Below, one piece after another: positions 21,592 to 62,316 of a DNA stretch of 64,000 nucleotides (position 1 is the first letter of the stretch; every line of letters begins with the position of its first letter). The notes beneath the pieces are model-generated. The model worked only from the letters and a program-made list of their open reading frames with translations, was not told the origin of the DNA and did not search any database. The stretch comes from Acinetobacter sp. XS-4 (GTDB lineage Bacteria > Pseudomonadota > Gammaproteobacteria > Pseudomonadales > Moraxellaceae): contig NZ_CP094657.1 in assembly GCF_023920705.1 (NCBI RefSeq), positions 1,240,001 through 1,304,000 of the forward strand. The letters run 5' to 3'. The position numbers were made by a program, and so were the translations under genes.

Positions 21592-22500
21592 GTGCAAATT
21601 TCACATAAGTCCTTCAGAAACGTCGGGTTAATCGGTCGACCAGATAAATCATCAGTTGTAGAAACACTCTGTTTAATTCATGATCATTTATTGAACTTAG
21701 GTTTGAACCCCATTTTTGATCAGGAAACAGCCGAATTAGTGCCTTATGATCATGCACAGATAGTAAGCCGTCATTTATTAGGTGAAGTTGCTGATTTAGT
21801 TATTGTGGTTGGAGGAGATGGTTCTTTACTCCATGCTGCAAGGGCTTTGGTTCGTTACAATACGCCTGTAATTGGTATCAACCGTGGACGGTTAGGTTTT
21901 TTAACTGATATCAAACCTTCAGAAGCTATTTTTAAACTTGATCAAGTCCTTCAAGGGCATTTTCAACTTGATCGCCGTTTCTTACTTGAAATGGAAGTAA
22001 GAACAAATGGCGAAGTCATTTATGATGCAATTGCTTTAAATGATGTCGTTTTGCATTCAGGTAAGTCGGTCCACATGATTGACTTTGAACTTAACATTGA
22101 TGGCCAATACGTTTATCGCCAGCATAGTGATGGTTTAATTGTTTCGACTCCAACTGGATCAACGGCCTATGCTTTGTCAGGCGGTGGACCAATTTTACAT
22201 CCAAGCATGGACGCGATTGCATTAGTTCCAATGCACCCTCATACCTTGTCATCACGACCAATCGTTGTTGGTGGTCAAAGCGAAATTAAGATTGTTATTC
22301 GCGAAAATCGAGTGTTACCAATGGTGAGTGCAGATGGACAACATAGTATATCGCTCAATGTTGGAGATAGTTTACACATCCGCAAACATCCATTTAAACT
22401 AAGTTTATTGCATCCACCAGGTTATGATTTTTATATGGCCTGCCGTACCAAACTTGGTTGGAACCAAGATTTTGAATCTTTCCAAAGAGATGAATCATGA
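21592..22500 (+). CDS. nadK: NAD kinase
   Basis: This enzyme phosphorylates NAD+ to NADP+. Its 302 residues include the GGDGSLLHAAR motif (about residues 80-90), GINRGRLGFLTDI, the NDVVLHSGK motif and SDGLIVSTPTGSTAYALSGGGPI. The gene starts with GTG at 21592; GGAG lies 11 bases upstream and there is no better in-frame start, since NVGLIGRP lies only 11 residues in. The stop overlaps the yeaC start by 4 bases. Confidence 0.93.
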   Translation: MQISHKSFRNVGLIGRPDKSSVVETLCLIHDHLLNLGLNPIFDQETAELVPYDHAQIVSRHLLGEVADLVIVVGGDGSLLHAARALVRYNTPVIGINRGRLGFLTDIKPSEAIFKLDQVLQGHFQLDRRFLLEMEVRTNGEVIYDAIALNDVVLHSGKSVHMIDFELNIDGQYVYRQHSDGLIVSTPTGSTAYALSGGGPILHPSMDAIALVPMHPHTLSSRPIVVGGQSEIKIVIRENRVLPMVSADGQHSISLNVGDSLHIRKHPFKLSLLHPPGYDFYMACRTKLGWNQDFESFQRDES

Positions 22501-22769
22501 ATATTGAACAAATGCTATCTATTTTAAACCCTGAGATTGTAGAGCGTTTAAAAACAGCAGTAGAAATTGGTAAATGGCCAAATGGCGTTGTTTTAACAAA
22601 AGAGCAGCGTGAAACTTGTATGCAAGCTGTAATTGCTTGGGAGTTAAAGAACTTACCAGAAGAGCAGCGTAGTGGTTATATTGACCGCGGTACAAAAGAA
22701 GAGGGTGAGGTTTGTGAAGATGATCACCACAAACATGAGCCAGAATTTAAACCAATTCGTTTTGTTTAA
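22497..22769 (+). CDS. yeaC: YeaC-family (DUF1315) protein
   Basis: This is a 90-residue soluble protein of the DUF1315/YeaC family. The core pattern MLSILNPEIVERLKTAVEIGKWPNGVVLTKEQRETCMQAVIAWE is family-typical, as is the acidic, His-rich tail (CEDDHHKHEPEFKPI). It is translationally coupled to nadK through an ATGA overlap. The function is unknown. It ends just before the structured repeat at 22858. Confidence 0.8.
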   Translation: MNIEQMLSILNPEIVERLKTAVEIGKWPNGVVLTKEQRETCMQAVIAWELKNLPEEQRSGYIDRGTKEEGEVCEDDHHKHEPEFKPIRFV

Positions 22770-22857
22770 AATTTTATAAGACAGAAAACTTATTTTTGGT
22801 TATTCCATATGGCCTTGAATACCATGTTTTTCATGAGTTATAGCATATAGGCTTTAA

Positions 22858-22970
22858 TTACTTTTAAAGGATTAAAAGTAAGCAAAAATCCTTTGTATCA
22901 CTGACGATACTTCCATGTATCGCAGTGATACGGTCGACATCCATGTCGACTTTCACGATAGCATCTGTTA
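22858..22970 (+). repeat. multi-hairpin structured repeat, copy A
   Basis: From left to right: a 10-bp hairpin TTACTTTTAA-AGGA-TTAAAAGTAA (22858-22881); a linker ending CCTTTG; a long hairpin (22895-22931) with a 9-bp lower stem, one bulged A (22904), a 6-bp upper stem and loop TTCCAT; a short hairpin GTCGAC-ATCCAT-GTCGAC (22933-22950); three bases; then CACGATAGC (22954-22962) and TGTTA. Copy B at 37546-37662 has the same order, spacings, loops and bulge but different stem arms. It lies between the convergent ends of yeaC and ybiB. Confidence 0.85.
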
Positions 22971-22971
22971 A

Positions 22972-23985
22972 CTACGAATTAAGATTGCTTGAATTACGTG
23001 TTTCCCATAACACTTTTGCTTTCTGCATTGCTTCTTCAAAACTAGCAACAACTCCCATGGTATATAGTGCAATTCCGATGGTTTCTGTTACTGCCATTTC
23101 ACCGTATTCATGGTGCTGTTGACCTAACCATACTGCTTTAAAAGTTGCTAAATCTAATTCTTCTTCAATTGGACTGCGTTCAGGCGTGAGTTTTGGTAAC
23201 TCGTGTTCATAAAGTTCACCATTTTTAATACCGCAAATGAGTGTTTTTGCATCTGGATTTCGCTCAAACTCACCCCCTTCACCTTTAATGACAGCACTAT
23301 TTTGATAGCCTAAGCGCAATGCACTATGTTGATGTGAAGTTCGATAAGCTGGATGGAATATTGCTTGTAAGGTGGCTTTAGCACTAAAAGGATTGATTAA
23401 GCGAGCTAATGTATGAATAGGTGAGCGTAGACCCATTACATTTCTTAAAGAAATCAGTTCACTTAAAACTGGTGAAATCACATCTAGTGGTAAGTATGCG
23501 AAATTTTGCTCTGCTAATTGTGTTCGTACTTCTTGTTCAGAATGACAAATTTGATAACCCAGATATTCTAAAACCTGTTCGGTATAAACACGGTTAAGCG
23601 TGTGACCTGATGCACCATGCATAACAATCTTATGGCCATGCTGGGCAAGCGTAAGAGCAGCTAATAAAAACCAAGGATAATGTTTTCGTTTACCCGCATA
23701 AGATGACCAGTCTAAATCAACTTCCAATGGCTGAAAATTGAGTTGATCTCTAGTGGCTTGAACAAATCCCGCGAGTTCATCAATAGATTCTTCTTTAACA
23801 CGAAGTAGCATTAAAAAAGCACCTAACTGTACATCAAGTACTTCACCTTTTAAAATCATGGTAAATGCTTGATAAGCTTCTTCATAGCTTAAAGAGCGTG
23901 AACCGCTTTTACCCTTACCTAAAATACGGACATATTGAGCGAATGGGTGTTCAGCATCTTTATAGATATTACGTTTAGTATTCAT
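22972..23985 (-). CDS. ybiB: YbiB/TrpD2-family protein
   Basis: This 337-residue protein is related to anthranilate phosphoribosyltransferase (TrpD) but of the TrpD2/YbiB subgroup, known as nucleic-acid-binding rather than tryptophan-making. It has the helical N-terminal domain (FAQYVRILGKGKSGSRSLSYEEAYQAF), then HGASGHTLNRVYTEQVLEYLGY and LRSPIHTLARLINPFSAKATLQAIFHP. The PRPP-binding GTGGD loop of true TrpD is not visible (HGASGH instead). In E. coli ybiB is a LexA/DNA-damage gene. It stands alone, ending at repeat copy A. Confidence 0.82.
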   Translation of the reverse strand: MNTKRNIYKDAEHPFAQYVRILGKGKSGSRSLSYEEAYQAFTMILKGEVLDVQLGAFLMLLRVKEESIDELAGFVQATRDQLNFQPLEVDLDWSSYAGKRKHYPWFLLAALTLAQHGHKIVMHGASGHTLNRVYTEQVLEYLGYQICHSEQEVRTQLAEQNFAYLPLDVISPVLSELISLRNVMGLRSPIHTLARLINPFSAKATLQAIFHPAYRTSHQHSALRLGYQNSAVIKGEGGEFERNPDAKTLICGIKNGELYEHELPKLTPERSPIEEELDLATFKAVWLGQQHHEYGEMAVTETIGIALYTMGVVASFEEAMQKAKVLWETRNSSNLNS

Positions 23986-36565: not shown

Positions 36566-36690
36566 ATAAGAACCGCTAAATAACAATACGTGATGCTATT
36601 TTACCGATAGTCGTCATTGAAAACACGAGTTAGCATTAAAAAATATCTACTGTTATAGTTGGTATTAAGAATAATTTTTTCAGGTTGTCT

Positions 36691-37470
36691 ATGCTTGCTT
36701 TAATTTCTCCTGCAAAAACTTTGGATTATGAAACAGCGTTACCTACAGATGAGTTTACTCAGCCTCGCTTGTTAGAACATTCAGAACAATTAATTGATGT
36801 TAGCCGTAAACTTTCTGCTTCTGAAATTGCGAGCTTAATGAGTGTCAGTGAAAAAATTGCCACACTGAATGCAGACCGATTTAGAGATTGGAAGCCCGAG
36901 TTTGATTTTTCAAATGCTCGTCAGGCAATTTATGCGTTTAAAGGTGACGTATATACGGGTTTAGATGCGTACCACTTAAAAGACAAAGATATTGCTTTTG
37001 CACAGCAGCATTTGCGTATGCTCTCTGGTCTATATGGTTTATTGCGTCCTTTAGATTTAATGATGCCTTATCGTCTTGAGATGGGTACTAAACTAAAAAA
37101 TATGCGTGGTCATAATTTGTATGAATTCTGGGGTGAAATTATCACAAACCAGATTAATGAAGACTTGGCAGCCATTAAATCTGAATTACTTGTAAACCTA
37201 GCTTCAGATGAGTATTACAAGTCGGTCAATGAGAAGAAAATTAAGGCTGAAATTATTAAGCCTGTTTTTCTAGATCAGAAAAATGGTAAATATAAAGTCA
37301 TTAGTTTCTATGCGAAAAAAGCACGCGGTTTAATGGCTCGTTTTATGATTGAAAACCAATTAAATAAAGCTGAAGACATCAAAGCGTTTAATACTGATGG
37401 ATACTACTTTGATGCTGAGAATTCATCAGCAAAAGAGTTGGTGTTTAAGCGCGATGAACAAGTGGCTTAA
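36691..37470 (+). CDS. yaaA: YaaA, peroxide-stress protein
   Basis: This 259-residue protein of the YaaA/DUF328 family has the diagnostic start [14 protein letters not shown], then [34 protein letters not shown] and [15 protein letters not shown]. coli YaaA limits intracellular iron and DNA damage during peroxide stress and binds DNA. It converges on thiG with structured repeat copy B between them. Confidence 0.92.
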
Positions 37471-37545
37471 TTAAATTAATAATTTCACGTGCCATGCGGC
37501 TTTTGGTCTCATGTTTAATTTATTAAACTCTATATTGGCTATGCC

Positions 37546-37662
37546 TTACTTTTGACCTTTCAAAAGTAACAAAAACCTTTGTTGAACAGAGGGCACATCC
37601 ATGTGGCCCCTGTTCAACAGTGGCATCCATGCCACTCGGCACGATAGCTTTTGTTATCGTGC
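37546..37662 (+). repeat. multi-hairpin structured repeat, copy B
   Basis: It has the same architecture as copy A. Hairpin TTACTTTTGA-CCTT-TCAAAAGTAA (37546-37569); linker ending CCTTTG; long hairpin (37581-37618) with a 9-bp lower stem, bulged A (37590), a 6-bp upper stem carrying one extra bulged G, and loop ATCCAT; short hairpin AGTGGC-ATCCAT-GCCACT (37619-37636); three bases; then CACGATAGC. Here a fourth hairpin GCACGATA / TATCGTGC (37639-37662) is complete. It lies between the convergent ends of yaaA and thiG. Confidence 0.85.
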
Positions 37663-37687
37663 TTTAAAATTTAGGCAAAATTAATGA

Positions 37688-38473
37688 TTACTTAAAGAAG
37701 TAGCCTGTTTCTGGTGAGCTTGCATTTGCCATACGTTTGCGTGGCATGCGACCCGCTAAAAATGCTTCACGACCAGCTTCAACAGCTTTTTTCATTGCAG
37801 AAGCCATCAAAATAGGGTTTTGAGCAGCTGCAATTGCTGTATTCATCAGCACGCCGTCACAACCAAGTTCCATGGCAATAGCTGCATCACTTGCTGTACC
37901 AACACCTGCATCGACCAAAACTGGCACTTTTGCATTTTCTTTAATAATTGAAATAGTGTGAGGGTTTAAAATACCCAAACCAGAACCAATAAGACTACCT
38001 AAAGGCATGATCGCAACACAGCCCATACTTTCAAGTTCTTGAGCAATGATCGGGTCATCAGATGTGTAGACCATAATCTCAAAACCGTCATCAATCAAAG
38101 TGCGTGCGGCTTTTAAAGTCTCAGTTACATTTGGATATAACGTTTTTTCGTCACCCAAAACTTCAAGTTTTACCAAGTTATGACCGTCTAGAAGTTCACG
38201 TGCTAACATGCAAGTGCGCACTGCGCTATCAGCATCAAAACAACCTGCGGTATTTGGCAAAATTGTATATTTTTCTGGCGGAATGACAGAGAGTAAATTC
38301 GGTTGATCTGGATTTTGTCCAATATTCACACGGCGGATTGCGACAGTTACGATTTCTGCACCACTCGCTTGAATGGCTAAATCTGTTTCATTTAAGTCTT
38401 TATATTTGCCAGTTCCTACCAATAAACGAGATTGAAAAGAACGTGAACCAATAATGAGAGGGGTGTCTTGCAT
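37688..38473 (-). CDS. thiG: ThiG, thiazole synthase
   Basis: This enzyme forms the thiazole ring of thiamine using ThiS thiocarboxylate. It has 261 residues from the ATG at 38473, with GGAG 6 bases upstream; the frame is open further but the extension is not family-like. Motifs: [15 protein letters not shown], the Schiff-base lysine in [16 protein letters not shown], and [30 protein letters not shown]. thiS lies 13 bases upstream on the same strand, so the two are co-translated. Confidence 0.93.
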
Positions 38474-38486
38474 GGATAACTCCGAC

Positions 38487-38684
38487 TTAGCCGCCGCCAA
38501 CAGCGTGAATAATTTCGATACGGTCATGTTGAGCAATAGTGATTTGCTCTAATTTGCTTTTAGAAACGATTTGCTGATTGTGCTCGACAGCAAATCGTTT
38601 TCCTTCAAGTGCCATTTCCTGAATGAGTTGTAACAGGTTTTGACAAGGCGTGTCCGTTAATTCGCCATTTAAATAAATTTGCAT
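38487..38684 (-). CDS. thiS: ThiS, sulfur carrier protein
   Basis: This ubiquitin-like carrier has 65 residues from the ATG at 38684 (MQIYLNGEL) and ends in AVGGG. The C-terminal Gly-Gly is adenylated and then thiocarboxylated to supply sulfur to ThiG. It is encoded just upstream of thiG. An in-frame extension to 38720 overlaps the preceding gene and lacks family likeness. No TPP-riboswitch-like sequence is seen nearby, and the preceding DUF423 gene probably shares the transcript. Confidence 0.9.
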
Positions 38685-61849: not shown

Positions 61850-61934
61850 GGGGGCGTGGCGAAATTGGTAGACGCACTGGATTTAGGTTCCAGCGCCGCA
61901 AGGTGTAAGAGTTCGAGTCTCTTCGCCCCCACCA
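61850..61934 (+). tRNA. tRNA-Leu(UAG), copy 1
   Basis: This is an 85-base class II tRNA with encoded CCA. The acceptor GGGGGCG pairs with CGCCCCC, the anticodon TAG lies at 61884-61886 in loop TTTAGGT, and a long variable arm CGCCGCAAGGTGT marks leucine. The discriminator is A. It is identical to the copy at 62090-62174. Confidence 0.97.
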
Positions 61935-61988
61935 CTTTAAGTTAAAACTTAAAGTTTAATATGGATGTTAAGGCATCTATATTTTGGA
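61935..61988 (+). other. hairpin spacer between tRNA-Leu and tRNA-Trp copy 1
   Basis: CTTTAAGT / ACTTAAAG with loop TAAA (61935-61954) starts the 54-base spacer. It is likely a processing signal in a joint tRNA transcript, as no T-run follows. Confidence 0.5.
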
Positions 61989-62062
61989 AGAGGATTGGTG
62001 TAATGGTAGCATGACGGTCTCCAAAACCGTTCGTCAAGGTTCGAGTCCTTGATCCTCTGCCA
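61989..62062 (+). tRNA. tRNA-Trp(CCA), copy 1
   Basis: This is a 74-base tRNA with encoded CCA. The acceptor AGAGGAT pairs with ATCCTCT, the 4-bp D stem and loop AATGGTA are regular, the anticodon CCA (62021-62023) lies in loop CTCCAAA, the T arm is CAAGG / CCTTG, and the discriminator is G. The A1-T72 pair and G73 fit tryptophanyl-tRNA identity. It is identical to the copy at 62243-62316. Confidence 0.92.
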
Positions 62063-62089
62063 CATTTATTTTAAATAAATGTCCCAGAT

Positions 62090-62174
62090 GGGGGCGTGGC
62101 GAAATTGGTAGACGCACTGGATTTAGGTTCCAGCGCCGCAAGGTGTAAGAGTTCGAGTCTCTTCGCCCCCACCA
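62090..62174 (+). tRNA. tRNA-Leu(UAG), copy 2
   Basis: This is identical over 85 bases to copy 1, with anticodon TAG at 62124-62126. The spacer before it differs from copy 1's upstream region and carries an ATTTATTT / AAATAAAT hairpin, so duplication is limited to the tRNA bodies. Confidence 0.97.
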
Positions 62175-62181
62175 TTAAAAG

Positions 62182-62208
62182 AAGCAAGACGATGTTCTTG
62201 CTTTTTTT
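62182..62208 (+). terminator. terminator inside the tRNA cluster
   Basis: AAGCAAGA / TCTTGCTT (8 bp, loop CGATGT) is followed by a TTTTT tract right after the second tRNA-Leu. It may reduce read-through to the last tRNA-Trp, which is followed by a second hairpin, ATGATTAAA / TTTAATCAT (62209-62236). Confidence 0.75.
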
Positions 62209-62242
62209 ATGATTAAATTATTGGTTGTTTAATCATAAAGAT

Positions 62243-62316
62243 AGAGGATTGGTGTAATGGTAGCATGACGGTCTCCAAAACCGTTCGTCAAGGTTCGAGT
62301 CCTTGATCCTCTGCCA
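62243..62316 (+). tRNA. tRNA-Trp(CCA), copy 2
   Basis: This is identical over 74 bases to copy 1, with anticodon CCA at 62275-62277. It lies after an internal terminator, so it may need its own promoter or read-through. Confidence 0.92.

Follow-up and report, generated by a model that had tools for sequence, protein, structure and literature searches.

REP and BIME elements are short intergenic palindromic sequences, mostly found at gene ends, which form inverted pairs and occur in several to tens of copies. Where they are associated with a RAYT transposase, a conserved tetranucleotide head (GTAG/GGAG) precedes the palindrome, and the stem sequence of the DNA hairpins that REP transposases bind is usually conserved. 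ERIC, RU-1/RU-2/RU-3 and MITE-like repeats are non-coding mobile intergenic units of 100–170 bp (for RU, the available text of PMC2759123). MITEAba12, a small non-autonomous mobile element of Acinetobacter, measures 111–114 bp and is described in the accessible part of PMC6382973 with 16-bp ISAba12-type terminal inverted repeats and 9-bp target duplications.

CsrB/C, RsmX/Y/Z and the flaA leader of Campylobacter carry CANGGANG-type hexaloops at a distance compatible with a protein dimer (PMC4894983, in the text available). According to the same source, CsrA/RsmE binds CANGGANG apical hexaloops with high affinity, the optimal distance between two sites for a CsrA dimer is 18 nt, and the flaA leader, which titrates CsrA, presents two adjacent hexaloops 21 nt apart. 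RsmA-regulating RNAs have been predicted by scanning intergenic DNA for at least two ANGGA motifs together with a poly-U tail and a Rho-independent terminator, or by similarity to such sequences (PMC5568370). Several sequence-similar predictions were reported for Pseudomonas syringae and two for Acinetobacter ADP1, one of the latter being a 119-nt RNA on the minus strand between the convergent genes ACIAD0018/0019 and the other lying at ACIAD2750/2751; in the available portion of that paper the RNAs are not described as mobile or as a genus-wide repeat. csrA is reported to be essential for growth of A. baumannii on rich medium (PMC12802169, available text), and RsmX/Y/Z are listed in brackets for this species (PMC7366521, Table 1). 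Our literature search, in sources accessible in part, returned no experimental proof of a CsrA-antagonist RNA in Acinetobacter.

Here we describe a family of short, non-coding and apparently mobile repeats which seems not to have been reported before and which extends through most of the genus Acinetobacter. Like REP/BIME elements, it is a dispersed intergenic palindromic repeat of many copies that lies mostly at gene ends and forms inverted pairs, but it differs from them in its length of ~158 bp, its three hairpins, its loop-linker helix, and its combination of freely varying stems with fixed loops. It resembles ERIC, RU and MITE-like repeats as a non-coding intergenic unit that is probably mobile; unlike in these, neither terminal inverted repeats nor a target duplication could be found, and its stem compensation is biased to one strand. 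Compared with MITEAba12, as described in the accessible text, the ends of the present unit consist of different letters and are not inverted repeats. With the Csr and Rsm RNAs it has the hexaloops and their spacing in common, yet it carries two sites per copy, is dispersed and apparently mobile, and gave no Rfam match and, at the two copies of the window, no minus-strand promoter. The predictions of PMC5568370 are likewise intergenic and carry ANGGA loops. Each of the three kinds is known by itself: CsrA modules with two sites, multi-copy ANGGA RNAs (as predictions) and mobile repeats between genes. The literature searched, accessible in part, gave no description of this mobile repeat or its kind, and as far as our searches show, a mobile family that combines them throughout a genus is undescribed.

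Two copies, A and B, lie in the window, the 64,000-nucleotide stretch of contig NZ_CP094657.1 of Acinetobacter sp. XS-4 that was analysed (Table 1). A sequence-only reading of this DNA had listed the hairpins, linkers, bulged A, loops and CACGATAG of both copies, in plus-strand order, and all of these parts are found where it had placed them. The unit itself begins ~50 bases earlier than that reading had it, at ~22805 in A and ~37492 in B. The claim that almost all stem bases differ between the copies was too strong: pairing is indeed kept, but the changed pairs between A and B number 7 of 15 in H2 and 4 of 6 in H3. TGTTA, which had been placed after CACGATAGC, is common to A and B but is not general, GATAG standing there in 92 of 135 copies (40 of these 92 continue (C/T)AAAT, and the rest vary).

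Table 1. Coordinates, in the window, of the two copies of the repeat, their parts and the neighbouring genes. The minus-strand label of copy A derives from the pairing selection on H2.
Feature	Position	Strand	Remarks
Copy A, whole unit, ~158 bp	22805..22963	-	ends from L318 (inverted) against L319 and the window, and from column conservation
Copy A, 5' module	22805..22852	.	CCATATGGCC ... TATAGGC; GCC/GGC may pair (P0)
Copy A, hairpin H1	22858..22881	.	TTACTTTTAA / TTAAAAGTAA; loop complementary to linker
Copy A, linker GCAAAAATCCTTT	22882..22894	.	complementary to H1 loop
Copy A, hairpin H2	22895..22931	-	9+6 bp; covariation
Copy A, H2 bulged A	22904	+	
Copy A, H2 loop	22911-22916		TTCCAT (+) = AUGGAA on minus strand
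Copy A, hairpin H3	22933..22950	-	covariation
Copy A, H3 loop	22939-22944		ATCCAT (+) = AUGGAU on minus strand
Copy A, CACGATAG	22954-22961		
Copy A, 3' end CACGATAGCA	22954..22963	.	
Copy B, whole unit	37492..37649	-	3' end placed as in copy A
Copy B, hairpin H1	37546..37569	.	loop is the reverse complement of the loop of ortholog L196/L072
Copy B, hairpin H2	37581..37618	-	bulged A at 37590; one extra base in 3' arm of upper stem
Copy B, H2 loop	37597-37602		ATCCAT (+) = AUGGAU on minus strand
Copy B, hairpin H3	37619..37636	-	
Copy B, H3 loop	37625-37630		ATCCAT (+) = AUGGAU on minus strand
Copy B, CACGATAG	37640..37647	.	
YeaC family protein gene (left of A)	22497..22769	+	open reading frame; name from orthologous A. 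baumannii record
Glycosyl transferase family protein gene (right of A)	22972..23985	-	open reading frame; name from A. baumannii record
yaaA, peroxide stress protein (left of B)	36685..37470	+	open reading frame; name from A. baumannii ortholog
Thiazole synthase gene (right of B)	37688..38536	-	open reading frame; name from A. baumannii ortholog

Both copies fold far better than shuffled sequence, with plus-strand z values of -6.3 (copy A) and -9.0 (copy B), reached by none of 200 shuffles of either copy, and a range of -5.9 to -9.0 over both strands of both copies. The 24-base H1, searched with at most 3 mismatches, recovered only copies A and B in the window (four matches on the two strands, 0.48 expected). 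In copy B, the loop of H1 is inverted exactly with respect to the ortholog (L196/L072), and because it is reverse-complemented, copy B is without the loop-linker pairing that most copies keep. A local inversion of this kind, here within 37546-37569, is what template switching in a hairpin would give.

The folding of the repeat is maintained by selection. In seven copies from the XS-4 genome 95.7% of cells were paired, against 81.1% with partners shuffled, and in 57 diverse copies 96.0% against 80.8%. Double-changed cells in these 57 copies numbered 311 as compared with 81 after shuffling (0 of 500 shuffles), and at most 52 when partners were slid by 1–3 columns; pairs with double changes numbered 22 against 15.2. 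Further pair types were no higher than in shuffles of the 57 copies (49 vs 47.6; 176 of 500). Covariation above chance had been set as a test beforehand, and it proved strong and double-sided against shuffled partners. Together with the fixed loops it supports the earlier suggestion of selection on RNA or DNA structure, or of protein recognition of the loops.

Beyond the three hairpins, there is complementarity between the H1 loop and the linker. The mean longest Watson-Crick run between the two was 4.89 in 131 copies, against a shuffled mean of 3.84 and a maximum of 4.10 in 1000 shuffles; runs reached at least 5 in 77 of the 131 copies and at most 3 in 19. The linker tracks changes of the loop (AAGGAT/ATCCTT, AAAGAT/ATCTTT, AAAGGT/ACCTTT). 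With 85.3% of cells paired in the 57 copies this helix stays below the others. Either an H-type pseudoknot or an alternative helix would account for it. A short helix in the 5' module, P0 (GCCT/AGGC), is weakly supported by a mean longest run of 3.81 in 120 sequences, against 3.50 in shuffles with a maximum of 3.72 (0 of 1000).

A covariance model (R1) built from seven copies of the XS-4 genome retrieved 10 copies in this 4.17 Mb genome and matches in 102 of 119 Acinetobacter genomes (own genome included), with 1 to 28 in each, leaving 17 genomes without any. Further genomic copies, the lack of which was to count against the sequence-only reading, are many. From 207 matches, 160 rows remained after length filtering (98-116 nt) and 139 after removal of identical cores; the set of 135 copies excludes a further four badly paired rows. 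One hundred of the loci were drawn from the head of the genus match list, and the copies analysed are mostly the best-scoring ones. A second model (R2) matched 85 of 249 genomes of the bacterial family, comprising Acinetobacter and weak matches elsewhere, the latter in seven genomes of two sister genera. All 12 sister-genus loci have an H1-type hairpin; the second loop,.TCC.T on a stem of 3-4 bp, is seen in 10 of 12, and the third loop,.TCC.T, in 12 of 12, with a stem of just 0-3 bp. The restriction of strong matches to the genus, with weak ones in sister genera, indicates a genus repeat with distant cousins.

Across 293 genomes of the order, strict filters returned the own genome and one weak match, L225, from another family of the order (E 8e-4 per genome, corresponding to ~0.24 expected by chance over the 293). 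L225 has two ATCCAT-loop hairpins, a bulged A at the same place and a long enclosing stem, and is possibly a chance match. A strict pattern scan with one genome per species gave 67 stretches, of which 65 were from Acinetobacter and 2 from Flavobacterium; the Flavobacterium matches were rejected, as by eye they are without the hairpin layout, and ~1 chance match is expected by rough estimate. Matches to copy A in phage and plasmid collections were confined to Acinetobacter records, several of them chromosome-sized. NZ_CP104448.1, NZ_CP064203.1 and NZ_CP077849.1 (3.7-4.1 Mb), which are filed as plasmids, look like A. baumannii chromosomes.

Simple sequence patterns hit 10 and 6 sites in the XS-4 genome, and the reversed pattern hit 0. 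Four of those 10 sites (L001, L005, L006, L009) belong to a sister repeat family, which has the H1 TTACTTTT..AAAAGTAACCAAAA in common with the present repeat and one long hairpin of the GTCATCCAC..GTGGATGAC type; a 5' module like CACGACGGAGTC is present in three of the four. Two loci, L023 and L026, are hybrids which combine the sister-family 5' module with the two-loop hairpins.

The sequence-only reading had given no family name, and Rfam holds no matching family either. At gathering thresholds, Rfam release 15 found only tRNAs in the whole window. Among five copy-bearing loci, with E values up to 5, two chance-level matches overlapped copies: HOTTIP_2 at 17.5 bits (gathering threshold 80) and rli43 at 16.3 bits (gathering threshold 100). 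The window holds a tRNA-Leu(tag)/tRNA-Trp(cca) pair twice in a row at 61850-62316, and a fluoride riboswitch (RF01734) lies near one copy elsewhere (L017, 2195-2261, minus strand).

Strains and species differ in where the repeat lies or in its orientation. One case is the copy-A site in A. baumannii, where the unit in p2VB280821 (135 kb, filed as a plasmid) is inverted relative to that of strain 2021CK-01407, with identical H1 and H2 stems and one compensated pair in H3. The flanks of these two units are unrelated, which delimits the unit to ~158 bp, from CCATACAGCC to CACGATAGCA, and the opposite orientations at one site imply that the unit moves or inverts. Thirty loci were fetched for locus A, of which 18 were readable across both flanks and 12 were partial. 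Six of the 18 show the orientation of the window (G000, G083, G004, G062, G007, G100), three carry the unit inverted (G109, G008, G085), and nine have other sequence, three of them in close relatives (G054, G047, G053). At locus B, 12 of 30 loci were readable and 18 partial: the unit is present in two (G000, G062), inverted with other stems in three (G100, G109, G007), and seven have a stretch of 760-774 bp (G083, G054, G047, G008, G085, G004, G053). That the unit moves is a conclusion from such comparisons; the opposite orientations could also arise if it inverted in place or if an inverted pair lost one of its members.

By its position between yaaA and the thiazole synthase gene, the 760-774 bp stretch (L199) is the A. 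baumannii metal-dependent hydrolase gene; the window has the repeat alone at 37470-37688 where the seven relatives have this stretch. Inverted pairs of the repeat occur tail-to-tail (L106, L107, L109) and head-to-head (L020/L026, L087). An intergenic site next to a gene whose beginning is thiolase-like (MKNAYIIDAIRTPFGRYAGG, by eye) holds two or three copies whose orientations differ between species (L020/L026 in the XS-4 genome, L100, L106, L107, L147).

Of the terminal features of a MITE neither was found: there is no peak of target-site duplication over 20 sites, and the two ends, CCATACAGCC and CACGATAGCA, do not form an inverted repeat. Membership in RAYT-driven REP elements was rejected, as the Y1 transposase domain PF01797 has 0 matches in the complete XS-4 genome; it matches in 22 of 119 Acinetobacter genomes.

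With regard to the neighbouring genes, 50 sites were examined and both sides could be called at 49, of which 22 are convergent, 26 in line and 1 divergent; gene directions were taken from open frames, often in just ~400 bases of flank, the 51 groups from flank clustering may merge different sites, and locus A is counted twice among the 49, once in each orientation. Both neighbours read with the plus strand at 16 of the 49 sites, and both loops are intact in 15 of these 16. Neither copy A nor copy B showed an intrinsic terminator, a hairpin followed by a T-run or a minus-strand promoter. At locus A, three relatives that lack the element (L172, L173, L175) have a hairpin-plus-T terminator behind the left gene, as judged by eye.

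Mismatches in the stems indicate the strand on which pairing is selected. Stem registers were chosen on Watson-Crick pairs alone, so neither wobble type was favoured by the parsing. In H2 and H3 of 139 copies, the mismatched cells on the plus strand were 77 A.C, 22 G.T and 51 other. Site-and-pair events numbered 47 A.C, 19 G.T and 41 other (47 vs 19, p 8e-4), and 82 distinct H2 stems, each with at least 12 of 15 Watson-Crick pairs, held 31 A.C, 4 G.T and 22 other (sign test p 3e-6); these p values are optimistic, as haplotypes, copies and sites share descent. The bias rests on H2, with H1 adding 4 A.C against 0 G.T, since H3 alone (8 A.C vs 6 G.T) shows no bias and the loop-linker helix (15 vs 11) little. 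A mutational strand bias was considered as the source of the A.C excess and is not seen in the flanks, where, within clusters of at least 4 copies, changes giving A.C and G.T were balanced (62 vs 54, p 0.5). An A.C on the plus strand is a G.U or G.T on the minus strand; the excess therefore disfavours a plus-strand RNA for H2 and indicates that pairing of H2 is selected on the minus strand, whether in RNA or in single-stranded DNA. In single-stranded DNA, too, G.T is tolerated better than A.C, and the strand test is thus no proof of RNA.

Read on the minus strand, loop 2 is A-N-G-G-A-N, the four named bases being present in 133, 135, 127 and 134 of 135 copies, while both N positions vary, the first seldom being C. 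Most copies have AUGGAU as loop 3. Both hexaloops read A-N-GGA-N in 121 of 135 copies, a C-G pair closes loop 2 in 109 and loop 3 in 128, and the GGA-to-GGA spacing is 24-27 nt. Fixed loops on freely varying stems suggest that a protein may read the loops. Both loops resemble the CANGGANG hexaloop sites of CsrA/RsmE, a match at the level of sequence that was noticed after the fact. The host genome has one csrA match, whose first 52 residues are identical to those of the solved CsrA 1y00 at 50, and CsrA is present in 117 of 119 Acinetobacter genomes. The two ADP1 RNA predictions of PMC5568370 could be copies of the present repeat; the record of A. baylyi DSM 14961 holds a copy (L263), at another kind of site. 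The predictions and the weak H3 of the sister-genus loci pull the probability of a CsrA function in opposite directions. Predictions of ~138 nt in P. syringae and ~180 nt in P. putida, in Table 2 of the same paper, could be comparable mobile repeats.

We tentatively favour, as a possible reading of these sequences, a non-autonomous mobile repeat whose minus-strand RNA would bind a CsrA dimer. Such an RNA would be made by read-through or from a putative promoter, and would display two ANGGAN hexaloops, mostly closed by C-G and ~25 nt apart, which would together bind one CsrA dimer. Depending on its place, the RNA would either decoy CsrA or make the stability of a co-transcribed mRNA depend on CsrA, and the H1/linker fold would present or lock the two-loop module. 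Read-through as the only source of the RNA is a weakened model: where both neighbours read with the plus strand, as at 16 of the 49 sites, it would give the wrong strand, and the loops are nearly always intact there.

Since the loops are intact whichever way the neighbours read, the same structures might instead serve mobility as single-stranded DNA. The repeat would then be REP/BIME-like, its minus-strand hairpins forming the substrate of a transposase or recombinase and its loops the recognition sites, with no role as RNA. We consider this somewhat unlikely. It agrees with the opposite orientations at one site between strains that have the same H1 and H2 stems, and likewise between species, with the 1 to 28 matches in each of the 102 genomes, with the inverted pairs, and with the minus-strand bias, which fits single-stranded DNA as well; it is opposed by the distribution of Y1 transposase matches (none in the host, 22 of 119 in the genus), by the flat target-site signal over 20 sites, and by stems that vary freely where those of REP transposase hairpins are usually conserved. 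A role as a two-way transcription end or a protector of mRNA 3' ends, REP-like and selected for folding only, appears distinctly unlikely. The preponderance of convergent over divergent sites (22 against 1 of 49), the lack of an intrinsic terminator at A or B, and the terminators behind the left gene in the three relatives lacking the element all suit such a role, whereas no T-run follows a hairpin at A or B, and folding alone explains neither why some loop bases are fixed and two positions vary, nor the H2 strand bias. It is very improbable that the element encodes a minus-strand small RNA whose loops pair with other RNAs or ribosomal RNA rather than with CsrA, as the two variable loop-2 positions are not predicted by base pairing, even though the loops contain a Shine-Dalgarno-like GGA and H1 loop and linker are complementary.

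If the CsrA-binding reading holds, a mobile repeat with a two-site module would offer insertions a direct route to rewire post-transcriptional control. An unlikely further step is that a mobile element, selfish or domesticated, has spread a ready-made CsrA-dimer module, its roughly ten copies in a genome such as that of XS-4 forming a distributed and evolvable CsrA sponge or mRNA-tagging system; these copies would then act beside, or instead of, ordinary Rsm-type RNAs. Even without CsrA, the compensating stems and fixed loops offer a natural way to test whether selection acts on RNA or on single-stranded DNA, and the repeat marks sites at which Acinetobacter strains differ.
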